This document shows, piece by piece, positions 5,227 through 30,644 of a stretch of DNA of 30,644 nt. Numbering within the stretch: position 1 is the stretch's first letter; every line of letters starts with the position of its first letter. The position numbers were made by a program, and so were the translations under genes. Source of the stretch: a virus; IMG/VR virus record IMGVR_UViG_3300030118_005586, positions 1 through 30,644 of that record, one strand, 5' to 3'. The notes under the pieces were generated by a model. That model searched no databases. It saw only the letters and a program-made list of their open reading frames with translations, and was not told where the DNA came from.

Positions 5227-6585
5227 ATGAGCGAAGAGAAAAAAGAATTAACCTTGGTTGATAAACTCGTTGATTCAAGAAAAGCACTCCGTGATGAATT
5301 AGATTCTTTAGTTGCAAATGCAGAGGACGAAAAAAGAGAATTAAACGAAGACGAAGCTGCAGATTTTGAAGCTAAGAGCGCAAAAATCAAAGAAAAAGAT
5401 TCTTTAATCGAAGAAATGAGATCTATGGCAGACAGAGACAAAGAAGTTGAAGAGTCAAGAAAAGTTATGTCAATTGACAATGACGACCTAACTCCAGCTG
5501 TTGAAGTTATGTCAGAGCCAAAGACTTATTCTGAAGAAGGTCGCAACTCATTCTTGAAGGACGCTTTTGCTGCAAAAGTAAATGGCGATTATTCTGCACA
5601 AGAAAGAATTGTTAGACACCAAAAAGAAACTCAAGAAACTCGTGATATTGGAACAGACGCATTCGCAGGATTAGTTGTTCCTCAATATTTGACAGACAGA
5701 GTTGCATTAAAAGCTAGAGCGGGATCACCGTTTTACAATGCACTTCCTAAAGCACCTTTACCAGATAAAGGTATGAAGGTTGAACTCTCAAGAATAACAA
5801 CAGGAACTGAAGCTGCTTTTCAAGCAACTGAAAATGCTGGTGTTCAAGAAACAAATATGGACGATACACTTTATTCAGTTAATGTAAATACAATCGCTGG
5901 CCAACAAGATGTTTCACGTCAAGCAATCGAAAGAGGAACTGACGTTGAGCAAATTGTTCTAGGCGATCTTGTATCTGCATATTTCACAACTCTTGATGAA
6001 AAACTTATCAATGGTGATGGAACAAATAACACTCCTGTTGGAATCAGAAACGTTGCTGGAATAAATACAGTAACCTATACTGACGCAAGCCCAACAGTTG
6101 GAGAGTTATATCCAAAGCTTATTGACGGAATACAAAAAATTAATAGCAATAGATTTGCTGCTGCAACTGCAATTATTATGCACCCAAGAAGATGGGGTTT
6201 CCTATCTGCTGGAGTTGATGGTAATTCAAGACCATTAGTTTTGCCTGCTGGTAATCAGCCGGACAATGTTTATGGAGTTGGAGAAGCTGCAGGATATGGC
6301 CAAGTTGTTGGTCAAATTGCAGGTTTGCCAGTAATTGCTGACGCAAACATCACAACAGCTGATGGTGGCGGAAACGATCAGGATCAAATCTATATCGTTA
6401 AAGCAGACGATCATATTCTTTTCGAAGAATCAGGAGCACCATTTAAGCTTCGATTCGAAGATGTGGGATCTGGATCTTTAACAGTTAAGTGCGTTGTTTA
6501 TGGTTATGTTGCTTACGCAGCTGGCCGTTATCCAACAAGCATAACAAAAATTCAGGGAACAGGGTTAGTTACACCTTCTTTCTAA
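5227..6585 (+). CDS. Major capsid protein, HK97 fold, with N-terminal delta domain
   Basis: A 452-residue major head protein. The first 90 or so residues are highly charged and helical (KLVDSRKALRDEL, then many Glu/Lys) and match the scaffolding delta domain removed by the prohead protease. The fold follows: AFAGLVVPQYLTDRV at the start of the shell domain, AGSPFYNALPKAPL, ISRITTGTEAAFQ-like and TIAGQQDVSRQAIERG segments, then LINGDGTNNTPVGI and MHPRRWG. The exact cleavage site is not visible. The ATG has AGGAG 6 bases upstream. It uses more C-ending codons (ATC, CTC, TTC) than its neighbours, as expected for the most abundant product. Confidence 0.92.
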   Translation: MSEEKKELTLVDKLVDSRKALRDELDSLVANAEDEKRELNEDEAADFEAKSAKIKEKDSLIEEMRSMADRDKEVEESRKVMSIDNDDLTPAVEVMSEPKTYSEEGRNSFLKDAFAAKVNGDYSAQERIVRHQKETQETRDIGTDAFAGLVVPQYLTDRVALKARAGSPFYNALPKAPLPDKGMKVELSRITTGTEAAFQATENAGVQETNMDDTLYSVNVNTIAGQQDVSRQAIERGTDVEQIVLGDLVSAYFTTLDEKLINGDGTNNTPVGIRNVAGINTVTYTDASPTVGELYPKLIDGIQKINSNRFAAATAIIMHPRRWGFLSAGVDGNSRPLVLPAGNQPDNVYGVGEAAGYGQVVGQIAGLPVIADANITTADGGGNDQDQIYIVKADDHILFEESGAPFKLRFEDVGSGSLTVKCVVYGYVAYAAGRYPTSITKIQGTGLVTPSF

Positions 6586-6597
6586 TTAAATAAATTT

Positions 6598-6632
6598 GGT
6601 TAAGGTGGATCTGGCAACAGATCTGCCTGACC
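6598..6632 (+). promoter_or_regulatory. Intercistronic hairpin with GNRA tetraloop after the capsid gene
   Basis: GGTGGATCTG (6604-6613) pairs with CAGATCTGCC (6618-6627) around a GCAA tetraloop, and GGTTA (6598-6602) continues the stem with TGACC (6628-6632) past one bulged A. That is 15 pairs, several G.U. No T-run follows, so it is not a classical terminator. It may act as an mRNA-stabilising or processing element that sets the capsid message apart from the downstream head genes. Confidence 0.6.
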
Positions 6633-6647
6633 ATATAAGGAAAAATT

Positions 6648-6803
6648 ATGGCAAAAGATAATGAAATGATAAATGCTTTATTAGCAGAGCTTAAACATTA
6701 TGAAACTTTTAAAAACAAAAAAAGGGCAGACGAAGTTAAAGCGGAATTAAAAAAAGCTGGCTGGAAAGCACCTAAAGAAAAAACAGAGACAAAAAAGAAA
6801 TAG
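6648..6803 (+). CDS. Small lysine-rich protein after the capsid gene
   Basis: A 51-residue, strongly basic and probably helical protein: MAKDNEMINALLAELKHYETF followed by a Lys-rich tail ending TETKKK. It is preceded by AAGGA at 6638-6642 and lies between the capsid gene and the connector gene. Short charged proteins with the same look (a MAK start, an LRAEL-type helix, a basic tail) are common directly after the capsid gene in actinophages, but their role is not established. A head-associated or DNA-contacting role is only a guess. Confidence 0.65.
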   Translation: MAKDNEMINALLAELKHYETFKNKKRADEVKAELKKAGWKAPKEKTETKKK

Positions 6804-14774: not shown

Positions 14775-15392
14775 ATGGCTTACTTAGGTACGCAACCAAA
14801 TAACGTAAAACAAAATACAGGTTTATATACACTTAGTGAAATACTACAACTAACTAAAGACGGCAGTTGGGGTGGTAGTTTAGAACTTATAGAATCTCAA
14901 ACAGTATCAAGTGCAAGTGCAGTAGATTTTACAAGTATTAAAGGTAATGTCTATGATGTTCATATACTTCAATTAATTAATGGACATTGTGCAGATGATA
15001 ATAAAGCATTTACAACTCAATTATCAAATGATGGTGGAAGTTCTTTTGAAACTTCTAATTATCAATGGGCTTTTAGTTATCAAAAATCAAATGGTACTTT
15101 TCAAGAAAAAAAATCAACAAGTGATAGTGCAATTTCATTAATCCATAATATTGGTAACAGTACAGGGGAACAAGTTAGTGGATATATATATTATTACAAC
15201 CTTAACAATAGTTCAAAATTTTCTTTTACAACTCATCAATTTACAGGTATGACGCAAGACCCCGATTATATTTCAACTTTTGGTGGTGGTGTTTATGCAG
15301 TTGCTGAAACTATAAATGCTATAAGATTATTAATTACTTCAAGCACTTTTGCTAGTGCTACTGTAAATTTATATGGAGTAAAACAAATATGA
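14775..15392 (+). CDS. Fibre-like protein A1 of a duplicated cassette
   Basis: A 205-residue β-rich protein that pairs with the product at 16419: both have an N-terminal segment ending in GLYT or GIFT, then LTKDGSWGGSLELIESQTVSS, a YDVHI strand, the YIYYYNLNNSSKFSFTTHQ block and a LYGVK-type ending. No catalytic motif is visible. By position behind tail-tip genes it may be a receptor-binding or tail-surface protein. It has a GGAG ribosome site. Codon use (AGT, AAT, ACA) differs from the rest of the genome. Confidence 0.65.
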   Translation: MAYLGTQPNNVKQNTGLYTLSEILQLTKDGSWGGSLELIESQTVSSASAVDFTSIKGNVYDVHILQLINGHCADDNKAFTTQLSNDGGSSFETSNYQWAFSYQKSNGTFQEKKSTSDSAISLIHNIGNSTGEQVSGYIYYYNLNNSSKFSFTTHQFTGMTQDPDYISTFGGGVYAVAETINAIRLLITSSTFASATVNLYGVKQI

Positions 15393-15898
15393 GTAACCTA
15401 AGATTAATTAATGAAAGTTCAGGAAGTGCAATAACAAGTTTTTCTATGACAGATGTTTTTAGTTCTGATTATGATATTTACAAAGTTGTTTTAGATACTA
15501 TTGATTTTGCAAATGCAGATTTATTTTTTAGATTTATTAATTCAAGTGGAAGTGTTGTAAGTGCAAGTAATTATGATGACGCAGTTTTATTGCTAAGAAG
15601 TTATAGCGCATTTGGAGAAAATAAAAATACAAATGCAACATCTCTTGGATCAATAGGATTTAGTGATTTATCAGATAAAGGAAATGCAACTGTTATATAT
15701 ATATTTAATCCAACAAGTTCTAGTTTTTATACTTTTGCATTGTGGCAAAATGCTGGTGTATCAAGTATTGGAACACCAGTAAGAAAAGGCATTGGTGTTT
15801 TAAAACAAACTGCAAGTATGACAGGTATAAATTTTAATGCTAGTTCATCAATATTAAATATTAGAGCAAGAATTTATGGATTGAGAGTTGATAGCTAA
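15389..15898 (+). CDS. Fibre-like protein B1
   Basis: A 169-residue protein. Residues 1-35 (LRLINESSGSAITSFSMTDVFSSDYDIY) align with the gene at 17072, and both have a YIFNPTSSSFYTFA-like central strand pair and an ending RIYGLR or IYGVK. The same central block (Tyr-rich strand, Asn/Ser turn, FSF-like strand) occurs in the A and C types, so all six proteins probably share one fold. The ATG overlaps the A1 stop (ATGA) and its TAA overlaps C1 (TAATGG), implying coordinated synthesis in fixed ratios. Confidence 0.65.
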   Translation: MSNLRLINESSGSAITSFSMTDVFSSDYDIYKVVLDTIDFANADLFFRFINSSGSVVSASNYDDAVLLLRSYSAFGENKNTNATSLGSIGFSDLSDKGNATVIYIFNPTSSSFYTFALWQNAGVSSIGTPVRKGIGVLKQTASMTGINFNASSSILNIRARIYGLRVDS

Positions 15899-16416
15899 TG
15901 GCAGGTCAATTACTTCAAGTAGCAACATCAACAGTAACAAGCGGAGTAAGTTCTGTAATTCTTACAGGAATTGATGATGATAGTGTTTATATGTTATCTA
16001 TTAATCATGTTGTTGCATCAGCAAATGGTAAACAATTAACATTTAGAGTAACTGCTAGTGGTACTGCAAAAACAACTAGTGATTATGACCAATCACTTAA
16101 ATCAATGTACACAGCGGGAAGTTTTATTAATCAAGGCAACACAAATTTGTCAGCTTGGTTAGATAGCACTTTTTCTAGTGGTAATGGGACGGGAGAGGGA
16201 GATAGTGGCATTGTGTATTTATATAATTTTAATAATTCAAGTGAATTTAGTTTTGCTACCTTTGAAATGGTTAAAGTTCAACTTACACCATATTTAGCAG
16301 GAGAACAAGGTGGTGGTGTTTATACAGTAACAGAAGCGCATGACGGAATAGAAATAAGATATTCAGATGGAACTAACATAGCAAATGGCACGTTTACATT
16401 GTATAAGGTGGTGTAA
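15898..16416 (+). CDS. Fibre-like protein C1
   Basis: A 172-residue protein opening MAGQLLQVATSTVTSGVSS and LTGIDDDSVY, matched by the gene at 17578 (MAGALIKIAETTVSS, LTGIDSTYDVY). It shares the block YLYNFNNSSEFSFATFE and the ending TLYKVV with the rest of the array. It may belong to a hetero-oligomer with A1 and B1; the strict A-B-C order in both copies supports that, but it is inference. Confidence 0.65.
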   Translation: MAGQLLQVATSTVTSGVSSVILTGIDDDSVYMLSINHVVASANGKQLTFRVTASGTAKTTSDYDQSLKSMYTAGSFINQGNTNLSAWLDSTFSSGNGTGEGDSGIVYLYNFNNSSEFSFATFEMVKVQLTPYLAGEQGGGVYTVTEAHDGIEIRYSDGTNIANGTFTLYKVV

Positions 16417-16418
16417 TT

Positions 16419-17072
16419 ATGAGTAATGAATTTGGATATATACCAGAAAGCCCTGAACAAAGTTTTGGAAATAATAAAGGGATCTTTACACCTACTGATA
16501 TTTATGATTTAACAAGAGCAGATAAATTTACACAGTATGGACAATTAGAATTAATACAAACTCAAAGCATTACTTCATCTACAAACAGTATGATTTTTAG
16601 TAGCATACAAGAAAGCACTTATAATATTCATTTTATAACTTATAGTAATTTTGTACCAGCAACAGCTAATGATAGATTGGGGATTAGATTTTTTGAAAAT
16701 GGGGTTGAGGAAAGTTCAACAGTATATAAACTTGCAAATCAATTAAATAGGACAGATGGTACTTTTTTAGAAATTAATTCTACAAGTAGTAATCACATTA
16801 GACTTGGTACAAATCCTTCAAATGGGTCAAATAATTGTGATAATGGTTATGTATATTTATATAATTTAGGGGATAATAATAAATTTAGTTATACAACAAA
16901 TCAAGCAACAGGTTTATATTATACTTCTAGTAGATACACATCTGAATTTGGAAGTGGTGCATTACCACAAAGAAGCACAGTTAATCAGATAAAATTATTA
17001 GTAGGTAACAATCCAAGTAATAACATAGCAAATTTACAAGCAAGTCTTTATGGCATAAAGGAATATTCATAA
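16419..17072 (+). CDS. Fibre-like protein A2
   Basis: A 217-residue homologue of the 14775 product: GIFTPTDIYDLTRADKFTQ, GQLELIQTQSITSS, VYLYNLGDNNKFSYTTNQ and SLYGIKEYS. It has a longer N-terminus (FGYIPESPEQSFGNN) that could be a different attachment peptide. It starts 2 bases after C1. The insertion NGVEESSTVYKLANQLNRTDG lies where A1 has an unrelated loop, as expected for a variable surface. The function may be adhesion to the host, but there is no direct motif. Confidence 0.62.
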   Translation: MSNEFGYIPESPEQSFGNNKGIFTPTDIYDLTRADKFTQYGQLELIQTQSITSSTNSMIFSSIQESTYNIHFITYSNFVPATANDRLGIRFFENGVEESSTVYKLANQLNRTDGTFLEINSTSSNHIRLGTNPSNGSNNCDNGYVYLYNLGDNNKFSYTTNQATGLYYTSSRYTSEFGSGALPQRSTVNQIKLLVGNNPSNNIANLQASLYGIKEYS

Positions 17073-17578
17073 TGGCTACTAATTTACAATTTATAAAATC
17101 TACTAGTGGGCTTGGTGTAAGTTCATTATCTTTAACAAATTGTTTTAGTTCTCATTATGATGTTTACCAACTTCAAGTTAATTATAACAATGGAAGTGGT
17201 AATAATAATTTAAGTATAAGACTTTTAGATAGTGGTGGTAGTCAAGTATCTACTTCAACTTATGATTTAGCAGGACTTGATATGAATAGTTGGACATCTT
17301 TTTCAGAAGTTAGAAGCACAGGTAATACTGCTTTTATAAATACTGCACAAGTTGCTGATAGTGATGATAATTCAGTTGGTAATACATATTTTTATAATCC
17401 TAATAATGCAAGTTATACATTTATTACAAGCCAACAAGCTAATGTAACTACTAATGATTTTAGAGGTAGAAAATTGATTCAAGTTGAAAAATCTACAACA
17501 CAAGCAACAGGTTTATATTTTTTTACAGTTAATAGTGGAACTGCAAATATAAAAGCAACAATATATGGAGTTAAATAA
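17072..17578 (+). CDS. Fibre-like protein B2
   Basis: A 168-residue homologue of the 15389 product: LQFIKSTSGLGVSSLSLTNCFSS followed by YDVYQLQV, a TYFYNPNNASYTFITSQQ block, GRKLIQVEKSTTQATG and TIYGVK. It overlaps A2 (TAATGG) and C2 (TAATGG) in the same way B1 overlaps its neighbours. Low-complexity Asn/Ser/Gly turns dominate. It is in the GATC-poor segment. Confidence 0.62.
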   Translation: MATNLQFIKSTSGLGVSSLSLTNCFSSHYDVYQLQVNYNNGSGNNNLSIRLLDSGGSQVSTSTYDLAGLDMNSWTSFSEVRSTGNTAFINTAQVADSDDNSVGNTYFYNPNNASYTFITSQQANVTTNDFRGRKLIQVEKSTTQATGLYFFTVNSGTANIKATIYGVK

Positions 17579-18093
17579 TGGCAGGTGCATTAATAAAAAT
17601 AGCAGAAACAACAGTTAGTTCAGCAGTAGCAAGTCTAACTTTAACAGGTATTGATAGCACTTATGATGTGTATCAACTTGTAATAAGAAATTTACAAAGT
17701 GCAAATGATAATACTGCTTCTAGGTATAGAGTAACAAAAGGTGGAACTGTACAAACAGATAGTGAATATGATAATGCTTATAAATATCTAACTACTAGTG
17801 GAACTTTTGGTAATGGCACTGCAACAAATATAGATAGGTGGTATTTAGATAATCAAGGTACAGGAACAGGGGAAGCATTTAATGCAAATATATATTTATT
17901 TAACTTTCCTAATGCAAGTGAGTATAGTTTTGCAACAAAAGAAACAGTAGGGTTACAATCTAGCCCAAACTTAACAGGTTTGCAAGGTGGAGATGTACAT
18001 ACAGTTGCAAGTGCAAGTGATGGTGTTAATATTTCAATGGATAGTGGAAATATTACAGCAGGAACTATCACATTATATGGTTTAAAGAAGTAA
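17578..18093 (+). CDS. Fibre-like protein C2
   Basis: A 171-residue homologue of the 15898 product: LIKIAETTVSSAVASLTLTG, YDVYQLVIRNLQS, then IYLFNFPNASEYSFATKET, LTGLQGGDVHTVASA and TLYGLKK. It closes the duplicated array. After it the usual genome composition returns, with a short gap containing TGTTATAGT, an extended -10-like box before the next gene. Confidence 0.62.
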   Translation: MAGALIKIAETTVSSAVASLTLTGIDSTYDVYQLVIRNLQSANDNTASRYRVTKGGTVQTDSEYDNAYKYLTTSGTFGNGTATNIDRWYLDNQGTGTGEAFNANIYLFNFPNASEYSFATKETVGLQSSPNLTGLQGGDVHTVASASDGVNISMDSGNITAGTITLYGLKK

Positions 18094-22817: not shown

Positions 22818-22849
22818 AGAAAAAAAATAAAAAAAAATAATAATAATGC

Positions 22850-22877
22850 TTACATATATAAAAAAATACGCCATAAT
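22850..22877 (+). promoter_or_regulatory. Promoter of the shared type (forward strand)
   Basis: GCTTACAT gives the -35 TTACAT (22850-22855), then 16 bases and CATAAT (22872-22877). CGCCATAATT is identical to the -10 region of the giant RNA promoter, and TTATATAAGAC follows. The leader then carries AAACGGAGGACA, which also occurs before the reverse gene at 9408. Confidence 0.8.
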
Positions 22878-22911
22878 TCTTATATAAGACAAAAACAAAC
22901 GGAGGACAAAA

Positions 22912-23139
22912 ATGAAATTTAGAGGAACTTTAGAAACAAACGACGGAAATGTTGAAGTTTTTGAGTTTGAAGGGATCACTAAAGACCAAGCTAAAGCAGA
23001 AATGAGAGAAAGAATTCAAGGAAAGTTAGTTGATGTTGCATTCGCTAGACTTTTCGAAATTCATAGATCTGATGTTGATTTAATTTGTAGGTGGTCTGTT
23101 GATAGTAATTTAGTTATTACAGAAAAATTTATGATCTAA
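22912..23139 (+). CDS. Small protein of unknown function under a strong promoter
   Basis: A 75-residue α/β protein: KFRGTLETNDGNVEVFEFEG (two strands), DQAKAEMRERIQGKL (helix), then IHRSDVDLICRWSVDSNLVI. The β-β-α start with an EFEGITKDQAKAE turn resembles small proteins that carry a sensor-like EFEG-x-T-x-EEA motif, but I cannot name a family. It is monocistronic, with its own promoter and its own terminator, so it is probably expressed at high level early in infection. Confidence 0.65.
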   Translation: MKFRGTLETNDGNVEVFEFEGITKDQAKAEMRERIQGKLVDVAFARLFEIHRSDVDLICRWSVDSNLVITEKFMI

Positions 23140-28423: not shown

Positions 28424-28482
28424 TATAGCACTTTTATAACAATTTGTAAGCTATTGTAATAAAAAAAAATAATAATAATACC

Positions 28483-28509
28483 TCACATAAAACCAAAAGG
28501 CGCCATAAT
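28483..28509 (+). promoter_or_regulatory. Promoter of the giant RNA (shared type)
   Basis: TCACAT (28483-28488), 15 bases, CATAAT (28504-28509). GCGCCATAATT and the following TATTATAAG match the forward promoter at 22850-22877. AATAATAATA lies upstream in both. The transcript should start near 28516. Confidence 0.75.
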
Positions 28510-28516
28510 TATATTA

Positions 28517-29796
28517 TAAGTTGTTGATCAGGCGGCAACTCAAAAGGGCAGCCCTGAAGTCGAGAGCCACGACAATAAAAAACGGGAGGCAAATATCCAG
28601 AAAGTTTGAGAAAGCTAAATGATAGAGGGTTATAACTAAATCTTATGAATGGGACGAAACTTCCAACTAAAAAATTAATAATGTAGCATAAGAGCCAAAT
28701 CGCATTAGCTTTCTCTAAGTTTGAGAGAGTTAGGTTATTAATATTACGCATACCAGTTAATTTTATTCTTAGATCGTTTGGCGAAAATCCAACGCAAAAA
28801 CTAAAAAAACTAAGAGCTGAATGCATGCTTTATTATGCCCCTAACTTTCTCATTACAAGTACATTATAAAGTTATCAGTACGGAGCTAAAATTCTGTGAC
28901 AGGAAATTATGACCAACTAAATATTGGGGGTTTGGCGGACGCGCTGTTTAGCTTTACTAAATTAGATATTCTAGGAGACTTGTTCTAAACTTAGCTTAAG
29001 TCCTGACCTAAATCAGGTGTGAGAAGCTGCACGGTTTTAGACCCGGAAATTGCAGACGAGCTAATATGTAACGGCCATATAGGAGTTGAATTGGTAAAAC
29101 GTGAAAATCACCGCCTTAGTAATAAGGTGTTCCTTAGCGGGAAATAGTAAGAGTACAATTCAGGGGAACGCCCCCCAATGCAGAAAAGAGAAACAGACAT
29201 CGGCTAATGAATATTAAAATAGTAGATAATATGCGTATTAATTTAATGGCGGTAGAGTAACGACAAGCTATGAATCCATTAAAGTGATGACTTTATAATG
29301 TACTTGTTACTGAATACTTTTGTGAGGGTAGCTTAAGCTATTGGCAACGCGTGCCAACAGAGATCACCTTTAACGAGCTTTAATGAAAAACAGAAATCGG
29401 CCGGACAGACTTATGAGCTGTTGAAATAATTGCTGAAATGCGAAATGGTTTTGATGGGGAAAGCAAATTAAACAGATGGAGCACCTTCTTAGTTACAATT
29501 TGAAACAATTGACGGGGAGTTAAAGCGGGAAGATCGAACACAAAAACAAATGTTGAAAAGGTTAGCGCAACTTCTGCCCTCGCAAAAGTATTTAGTAAAA
29601 CAAACTTTTAATGAAGTGCATGACGTTACGATCTGAAAAATAGCTTCCGGGTTTGATACCGGACTTGTTAAGAAGTAAAAGAGTGAATAAGTAGGATCCG
29701 CGTACGAGCCAAAAGTATTCGAAAGATAGTCTTAGTAGCTGTATAAACTTAACTAGCGAGAAAATAACCGGACTGCGCTTCATTAAAGGTTTGTTA
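28517..29796 (+). ncRNA. Giant structured non-coding RNA (GOLLD/ROOL-like candidate)
   Basis: About 1.28 kb without a credible gene. Long helices are seen directly. H1: 28608-28618 with 28705-28715, 11 pairs. H2: 28722-28734 with 28840-28852, 13 pairs. H3: 28855-28877 with 29285-29307, 23 pairs, enclosing some 400 bases. H4: 29599-29620 with 29774-29795, 22 pairs. The four non-Watson-Crick positions in H2-H4 are all G.U on the + strand; on the other strand they would be A.C, which sets the direction. Smaller hairpins include 29341-29357 (TTGGCA/TGCCAA), 29002-29017 (CCTGA/TCAGG), 29242-29283 (TTTAATGG/CCATTAAA) and 29496-29511. Size, ornateness, G+C above the surroundings and phage context fit the GOLLD/ROOL type; membership is untested. 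No terminator follows, so the 3' end may be processed. Confidence 0.85.
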
Positions 29797-29816: not shown

Positions 29817-30071
29817 ATGGGAAAGCTTGAAGAAAGCAAAACATTAGCGATCGCGAAACCGTGGTATATAAAGATCACAGTTGAGTTATATAACGAAACT
29901 TATATAACTTATTCAGTGGAAACTGAAGCGCATTCGTCTGATGAAGCTTATAGAAAAGCAGTTAAGTCAGTTGAAGCTAAACTAAAAAATAGCGGAATAG
30001 ATCCGCAATATAAAGGTTTAGGTGGAGACGTTAAAGCTTATCATGAGCTTGAAACAAAAAGATTAAAATGA
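29817..30071 (+). CDS. Hypothetical protein downstream of the giant RNA
   Basis: An 84-residue protein: PWYIKITVELYNETYITYSV, a helix (SSDEAYRKAVKSVEAKLKN) and GIDPQYKGLGGDVKAY. The strand-strand-helix design is like that of other small early proteins here. AAGGAGGACTA stands before the ATG, only 8 bases after the last helix of the giant RNA, so one transcript may contain both. It overlaps the zinc-ribbon gene by 4 bases. No family is recognised. Confidence 0.65.
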   Translation: MGKLEESKTLAIAKPWYIKITVELYNETYITYSVETEAHSSDEAYRKAVKSVEAKLKNSGIDPQYKGLGGDVKAYHELETKRLK

Positions 30072-30271
30072 AATTAATTGAATATAAATTTATATGCCGC
30101 GTTTGCGGTTGTGATCGTCAATGGTTAGGCGAAAAAAATGTTATGTGGTTTTGGTGTTTCTTATGCGATGAAATGACAGTTAATAAAAAAGAATTTCATA
30201 GGCGCACTAATAAAAAATTTAGGGGGGGCCTACTTAACAAAATAAAAAGGGGCCTAGCTTGGCGGAAATAG
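30068..30271 (+). CDS. Small zinc-ribbon protein before the HNH gene
   Basis: A 67-residue basic protein. YKFICRVCGCDRQWLGEKN and FWCFLCDEMTVNKKEF give two cysteine pairs (CRVC and CFLC) 18-20 residues apart, the spacing of a zinc ribbon. The tail (KFRGGLLNKIKRGLAWRK) is strongly basic, so nucleic acid binding is likely. It overlaps the HNH gene by 13 bases. Its direct partner may be the endonuclease in packaging. Confidence 0.65.
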   Translation: MKLIEYKFICRVCGCDRQWLGEKNVMWFWCFLCDEMTVNKKEFHRRTNKKFRGGLLNKIKRGLAWRK

Positions 30272-30576
30272 GAAGGGGTTGTTTAGACTGCGGCATAAGG
30301 TTTATACCTACTAGATCAAGATCAAATTCAAGATGTAATAATTGTGAAGGGGTACGCCGATCCAGAGAAGCTTATAACGATCCTCAATATAGAAAGCTAA
30401 GAAGTTTATTACTAAGCGCCGCTGTAACTTGTGCGATATGCGGCAAAGGTAAAGAAAAAGATAATCCATTTACTATAGATCATATACTTCCGGTTAGTAA
30501 AAAAGGCAGCAATGATCCTGACAACATGCGCGTTGCACACCTTAAATGTAACAGCAAAAGAGGCAATAAAGATTAA
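30259..30576 (+). CDS. HNH endonuclease, probably aiding packaging
   Basis: A 105-residue nuclease starting at TTG with AAAAGGGG as a probable ribosome site. The N-terminal part has CLDCGIRF and CNNCEG (a zinc-binding start). The HNH core reads TCAICGKGK, PFTIDHILPVSKKGSND and NMRVAHLKCNSKRGNK, with the ββα-metal His in DHI and the second and third motif residues Asn and His/Lys present. HNH proteins adjoining terminase genes are needed for cos cleavage in HK97-like phages. It lies at the right end and terS at the left, so they would be adjacent in a circular map. Confidence 0.88.
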   Translation: MAEIGRGCLDCGIRFIPTRSRSNSRCNNCEGVRRSREAYNDPQYRKLRSLLLSAAVTCAICGKGKEKDNPFTIDHILPVSKKGSNDPDNMRVAHLKCNSKRGNKD

Positions 30577-30644
30577 TATTTATAGCTTATTAGCAGCTAT
30601 ATAGGGGTTGCGGTTTTTTTTTATATATATAGCAGGCCCGTCGC
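30577..30644 (+). other. Non-coding right end with hairpin
   Basis: TATAGCT (30581-30587) pairs with AGCTATA (30595-30601), followed by GGGGTTGCGG and a run of T's (30614-30622). The hairpin and T-run are separated by about 12 bases, so it is a poor terminator. With bases 1-150 it would form a junction of some 218 bases between the HNH and terS genes, the expected site of cos. Confidence 0.4.

Follow-up and report, generated by a model that had tools for sequence, protein, structure and literature searches.

A candidate gene for a giant multi-domain structured RNA in an actinophage-like virus genome

What is a stretch of about 1.28 kb that holds no protein gene doing in a small, tightly packed phage genome, and if it is an RNA, of what kind? 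The window analysed here is the whole of a 30.6-kb virus contig (30,644 nt; IMG/VR record IMGVR_UViG_3300030118_005586, positions 1 to 30,644). It starts directly before the small terminase gene, as is likewise the case in Pontimonas phage phiPsal1 and in the related genome G004, and its end lies past an HNH endonuclease gene. Among its proteins are terminase, portal, capsid, tail, exonuclease, thymidylate synthase and dihydrofolate reductase. An earlier note had called the genome actinophage-like, and this description is supported by a gene for a WhiB regulator, by the large terminase (TerL), whose best match among named phages is that of phiPsal1 (32%), and by the 58% identity of this TerL to one on a phage-like contig in a Ca. 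Actinomarina single-cell genome. Genomes of Ca. Actinomarinales have a GC content of ~32.5% and a median intergenic distance of 2 bp (PMC7771536), which makes a marine actinobacterium the likely host and a 1.28-kb non-coding stretch a costly one; we take the virus to be a siphophage of such a host as part of the best explanation. Elsewhere in the window, five adjacent genes at 15389-18093 (168-217 aa) look like paralogues and cross-match in two related genomes, G001 and G003; G001 carries a shuffled set of genes of this type, which possibly encode receptor-binding proteins.

The protein-free region and its probable promoter

The region lies on the + strand at 28518-29796. It contains no + strand ORF longer than 42 aa, and for the single long ORF on the minus strand (28509-28826, 105 aa) the close relative G001 offers no counterpart of at least 50 aa, so that the long protein-free stretch reported earlier stands. 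Five inverted repeats, identified in a DNA inverted-repeat search, tile 28518-29796, with neighbouring helices separated by 0-2 nt. The three longest uninterrupted + strand helices of the 30.6-kb window (25, 23 and 22 bp, at spans up to 700) form the closing helices of the last three domains, H3-H5, the next longest being 18 bp, and no minus-strand helix in the window exceeds 18 bp. A previous list of 11-, 13-, 23- and 22-bp helices was right about the 23- and 22-bp helices and overlooked the one of 25 bp. Six of the 70 positions in the H3-H5 helices are non-Watson-Crick (1, 3 and 2), and all six are G.U when read on the + strand, as the earlier note had seen for four such positions; by arithmetic, the chance of this is ~2e-5 if mismatch types are equal, or 1/64 when transitions only are counted. 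G.U on the + strand only is unexpected for a strand-neutral DNA repeat. The region folds at -322.7 kcal/mol versus -289.4 for shuffles (sd 8.9, z -3.7), with 0 of 60 shuffles as low, and the divergence from G001 is bounded by the same interval. Judged from the last helix, the 3′ end of the RNA would lie near 29796.

The RNA is probably transcribed from a promoter of its own. The 60 bp upstream (28458-28517, + strand) contain an A-rich tract, a -35 element CTCACA (28482-28487) and a -10 element CATAAT (28504-28509), and are a near copy of a second site of the same type at 22826-22896 (+ strand), upstream of the gene at 22912. Shared by 28458-28522 and 22826-22896 are a long A-rich tract, AATAAAAAAAAATAATAA, the -10 CATAAT and then TATAAG; both promoter-like copies are present in the window and in G001, while the count of matches to the -35/-10 pattern is by itself at chance level. 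The variable part of the RNA starts directly after the shared TATAAGTT. From their position and elements, these 60 bp would be a promoter, and an early one, with transcription predicted to begin near 28516-28520. The near copy at another intergenic region, and the retention of both copies in G001, strengthen the claim of separate expression from an own promoter made in the earlier note. Downstream on the + strand (29817-30576) are genes for 84-aa and 67-aa proteins of unknown family and for the HNH endonuclease, with a Shine-Dalgarno sequence, AAGGAGG, just upstream of the first ATG and a terminator-like site after the HNH gene at 30593-30611. No terminator was found between the end of the RNA and the gene that follows, and the RNA could therefore either be released by processing or form the leader of the HNH operon.

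Predicted domains of the RNA and a short version in a close relative

The transcript would start near 28518 and fold as a row of independently closed domains: a 5′ domain followed by H1, H2, H3, H4 and H5. The 5′ domain (28519-28600, + strand) carries hairpin P1 (28519-28526/28533-28540). Domain H1 (28601-28722, + strand; helix 28601-28618/28705-28722) is an inverted repeat and a tandem paralogue of H2 (28717-28853, + strand; helix 28722-28743/28831-28852), the conserved hairpin that holds the core motif at 28782-28804 and on which covariance model R1 is based. The two align end to end with a score of 62 against a shuffle maximum of 42, and their outer stems show two double compensatory differences. 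They share the motif CGAAAM..UCCAAC..AAAAA (H1 copy at 28655-28678), a pattern derived from these two copies that has two exact matches in the window and none in shuffles. Model R1 recovers H1 at the correct place with 16 bits (E 0.76 over 150 kb), a match that is weak alone, and its antisense match at its own locus mirrors the hairpin. H4 contains a third relative of the core motif (29529-29550). The remaining three domains, all on the + strand, make up the bulk of the RNA. H3 (28855-29307) is closed by the 23-bp helix 28855-28877/29285-29307, with 407 nt between the arms and a multibranched interior; H4 (29307-29598) and H5 (29599-29795), each found both as an inverted repeat and in the helix scan, are closed by the 25-bp helix 29307-29331/29574-29598 and the 22-bp helix 29599-29620/29774-29795, respectively. 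A hairpin in H4 (29340-29358), UUGGC[AACGCGU]GCCAA, has a 6-nt palindromic loop of the type used in symmetric kissing between copies. Besides the H1/H2 repeat, the motif AAACAGA.ATCGGC occurs in both H3 (29185-29204) and H4 (29382-29401), and is possibly a tertiary element that recurs in the RNA.

Searches of IMG/VR turned up one close relative, G001 (IMGVR_UViG_3300030380_004661; loci L004/L012). Upstream, the two genomes share 97% DNA identity over a flank of 1,023 bp that runs into the very start of the RNA; downstream, the identity is 98% over the stretch that begins with the last helix arm and takes in the 84-aa gene. At the same site they carry RNAs of ~490 nt in G001 versus ~1280 nt in the window. 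In the short version H1 is missing, and one 3′ domain with a 14-bp closing helix takes the place of H3-H5; this domain shows borderline similarity to part of H3, and the 3′ arm alone of the H5 helix is kept. Taken by itself, the G001 RNA is not clearly more stable than its shuffles (z -1.7).

The changes between the two RNAs are informative where the stems can be aligned. H2 is 88% identical in G001, with 16 differences and an identical inner 70 bases. Seven pairs of the window's predicted H2 structure differ, yet 38 of the 39 are kept, the broken one being the outermost, and one pair has changed on both sides from U-A to C-G. If these substitutions are scattered randomly, 5.4 pairs are broken on average and one or fewer in 0.4% of trials (P 0.004). 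On a minus-strand reading, G001 would keep just 33 of the 39. In the P1 stem, too, the changes come in pairs (AGUUGUUG/CGGCAACU in the window versus AGUUAAU/AUUAACU in G001), with pairs 5 and 6 changing on both sides, and the 5′ domains of the two genomes have a local similarity of p about 0.01. The P1 loop could in addition pair with a segment ~20 nt downstream (UCAGG 28528-28532 with CCUGA 28553-28557 in the window, CUGCAG with CUGCAG in G001), which is suggestive only of a candidate loop pairing. Compensatory change had been set beforehand as one test of the helices, and it was found in both stems alignable with G001, H2 and the 5′ hairpin, within a homologous comparison of one pair of genomes in which the 22-25 bp helices of H3-H5 have no alignable homologue.

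Helix statistics, G.U polarity, pair-preserving changes in H2 and internal paralogy together give good support to the proposal that a giant structured RNA is encoded on the + strand. Large, ORF-free and highly structured, it is of the general kind of giant phage-encoded structured ncRNAs, with covariation limited to H2, P1 and the H1/H2 paralogues. The body of the RNA is far more variable than the flanking genes, though unevenly so, as a core is kept. In the G001 locus L004, the 84-aa and 67-aa genes are separated by an extra 157-aa gene (6265-6738) that the window lacks; the locus as a whole looks like a hot spot for gains and losses.

Comparison with known RNA families and distribution

ROOL assembles into an 8-mer nanocage and GOLLD into a 14-mer nanocage, and both are often encoded near tRNA islands, which for GOLLD is usual rather than strict. 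The 30.6-kb window contains no tRNA gene. With all 4,227 Rfam models, cmscan gave no match in the window at gathering cut-offs, and at E up to 10 nothing meaningful in the window or G001, including no GOLLD, ROOL or OLE; a GOLLD match in G001 (8 bits) is noise. Single-family searches with ROOL (RF03087) and OLE (RF01071) gave no window match, nor did one with GOLLD (RF02032, which covers the conserved 3′ region) at E up to 10, the positive control obtained being for ROOL only. This control was a ROOL-like RNA of Staphylococcus phage K (L128, 38019-38584, minus strand), which was missed at gathering (36.5 bits versus a cut-off of 99.1) and found by sensitive cmscan (E 1.4e-5); 15 Firmicutes genomes yielded no positive control for either ROOL or GOLLD. 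The Rfam threshold hides divergent ROOLs, and since the phage K RNA was detected by the sensitive search, a ROOL of that divergence should have shown up in the window.

Phages and prophages encode GOLLD, a giant structured RNA that often exceeds 800 nt and in which one part is conserved and another varies (PMC12286853). The RNA described here resembles it as a giant structured phage RNA with conserved and variable parts, and differs from it in the lack of a model match and of a nearby tRNA, in its length of 1.28 kb, and in the location of the conserved part, which in GOLLD is a universal 3′ region and here is an internal hairpin plus the 5′ hairpin. With ROOL it shares the character of a large phage RNA, and the long ncRNA of phage K, which is tRNA-linked and reported as expressed, is similar in style, its transcribed strand forming helices of 22, 19 and 16 bp; the differences are again the missing model match and the simple row of separately closed domains. 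OLE is likewise a large ornate bacterial RNA and likewise gives no model match. The Vibrio phage ICP1 makes an orf-less transcript of ~800 nt, its most abundant transcript, whose length its authors compared with those of GOLLD and ROOL (PMC7567579). Like the RNA predicted here, it is a large phage non-coding RNA away from tRNAs. The earlier suggestion of a GOLLD relative is not supported by these searches or by the absence of tRNA genes, and the alternative offered with it, a new class, fits better.

BLAST against 50,697 phages returned no homologue, and neither did searches of viral and genome contigs with exact and degenerate DNA motifs, where three extra motif matches inside coding genes were attributed to chance. 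Scans with four proteins (TerL, TS, the 84-aa protein and an 89-aa protein) led to the one close relative and to many distant phages without the RNA. It was absent, by sequence, model R1 and a long-helix scan, from 80 TerL-related loci, from phiPsal1 and from G003 and G004, which are near-full-length relatives with TerL about 54-55% identical. Model R1 likewise found no RNA in the 80 related loci and 26 whole related phage records besides G001, or in 42 genomes from the order of Ca. Actinomarina; as R1 covers H2 alone, similar RNAs with another core would be missed. ORF-free gaps of ~310 nt in related phages contain small unlisted ORFs, and the phiPsal1 gap at 28440-28942 resembles an unlisted gene; within the same phage (L006), the open stretch at 28494-28821, without an annotated gene, looks like an unlisted protein gene.

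Interpretation and significance

We consider that the locus encodes a giant structured ncRNA of several domains, transcribed from the + strand by its own promoter and acting most likely in trans (probability about 0.62). By analogy with what has been proposed for GOLLD and ROOL, the RNA would serve in the infected cell as an RNA scaffold or assembly, and not as a protein template. Its conserved functional core would be the 5′ hairpin plus H2, with H1 and H3-H5 as accessory modules that were gained by duplication or exchange, or were lost in G001. Hints that the RNA forms multimers are weak, and palindromic kissing-loop candidates in the whole RNA are not enriched over chance. The main rival, given that no terminator separates the RNA from the operon, is a giant structured 5′ leader with a cis-regulatory or stability role, in which transcription would continue past the RNA, across the 84-aa, 67-aa and HNH genes, as far as 30593-30611, and the message would be controlled or protected by the fold. 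The missing terminator, a Shine-Dalgarno sequence and ATG only 10-20 nt past the last helix, and an 84-aa gene that stays adjacent to the RNA in both genomes at 98% DNA identity all fit a leader. However, the G001 RNA has been more than halved while the promoter and the first downstream gene were kept, and the leaders known to us are far below 1.28 kb in five domains. Several phage RNAs of similar size are, moreover, free and abundant (PMC12286853, PMC7567579), and we regard a leader as unlikely, with roughly one chance in five.

The other explanations fare worse. That the RNA is a GOLLD or ROOL too divergent for the Rfam models is improbable: size, phage setting and long helices are alike, and gathering cut-offs miss even the phage K ROOL, but the same cmscan recovered that RNA, while the window gave nothing at E up to 10 or in single-family searches and has no tRNA nearby. 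A decayed or ORF-less intron, or another mobile RNA element beside the HNH gene ~460 nt downstream, would account for the modular gain and loss; it is nevertheless very improbable, as group I and group II introns and HEARO have no Rfam core match at E up to 10, no gene is interrupted, the region has its own promoter, and the HNH gene is the terminase-neighbour HNH that also occurs in relatives without the RNA. We give hardly any credence to a feature of the DNA itself, in which inverted repeats would act in replication, packaging or recombination near the genome end. The site is ~1-2 kb from the packaging end and its inverted repeats are long, but the one-strand G.U, the conserved unpaired loops, the one-sided pair-keeping changes in H2 and the own promoter all point away from it.

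The best reading of the trans-acting RNA is a new class of giant phage RNA, represented by two genomes, that is GOLLD/ROOL-like in kind, belongs to neither family, and combines a conserved core with exchangeable accessory domains. More tentatively, and at somewhat less than even odds, this class may be unrelated to GOLLD and ROOL by origin and may evolve by swapping and duplicating closed domains around the conserved core hairpin, giving RNAs of 1.28 versus 0.49 kb in phages with 97-98% identical flanks. To our knowledge, only a few large ornate RNAs of phages have been described, none with an established function. An unrelated giant RNA in a small, tightly packed marine phage would mean that RNAs of this sort have arisen more than once and are worth their length. 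The natural occurrence of a short and a long version in near-identical genomes offers a ready comparison of essential domains and a basis for domain-by-domain tests. If the RNA self-assembles, phage RNA cages or scaffolds would have originated independently once more, here with interchangeable parts.
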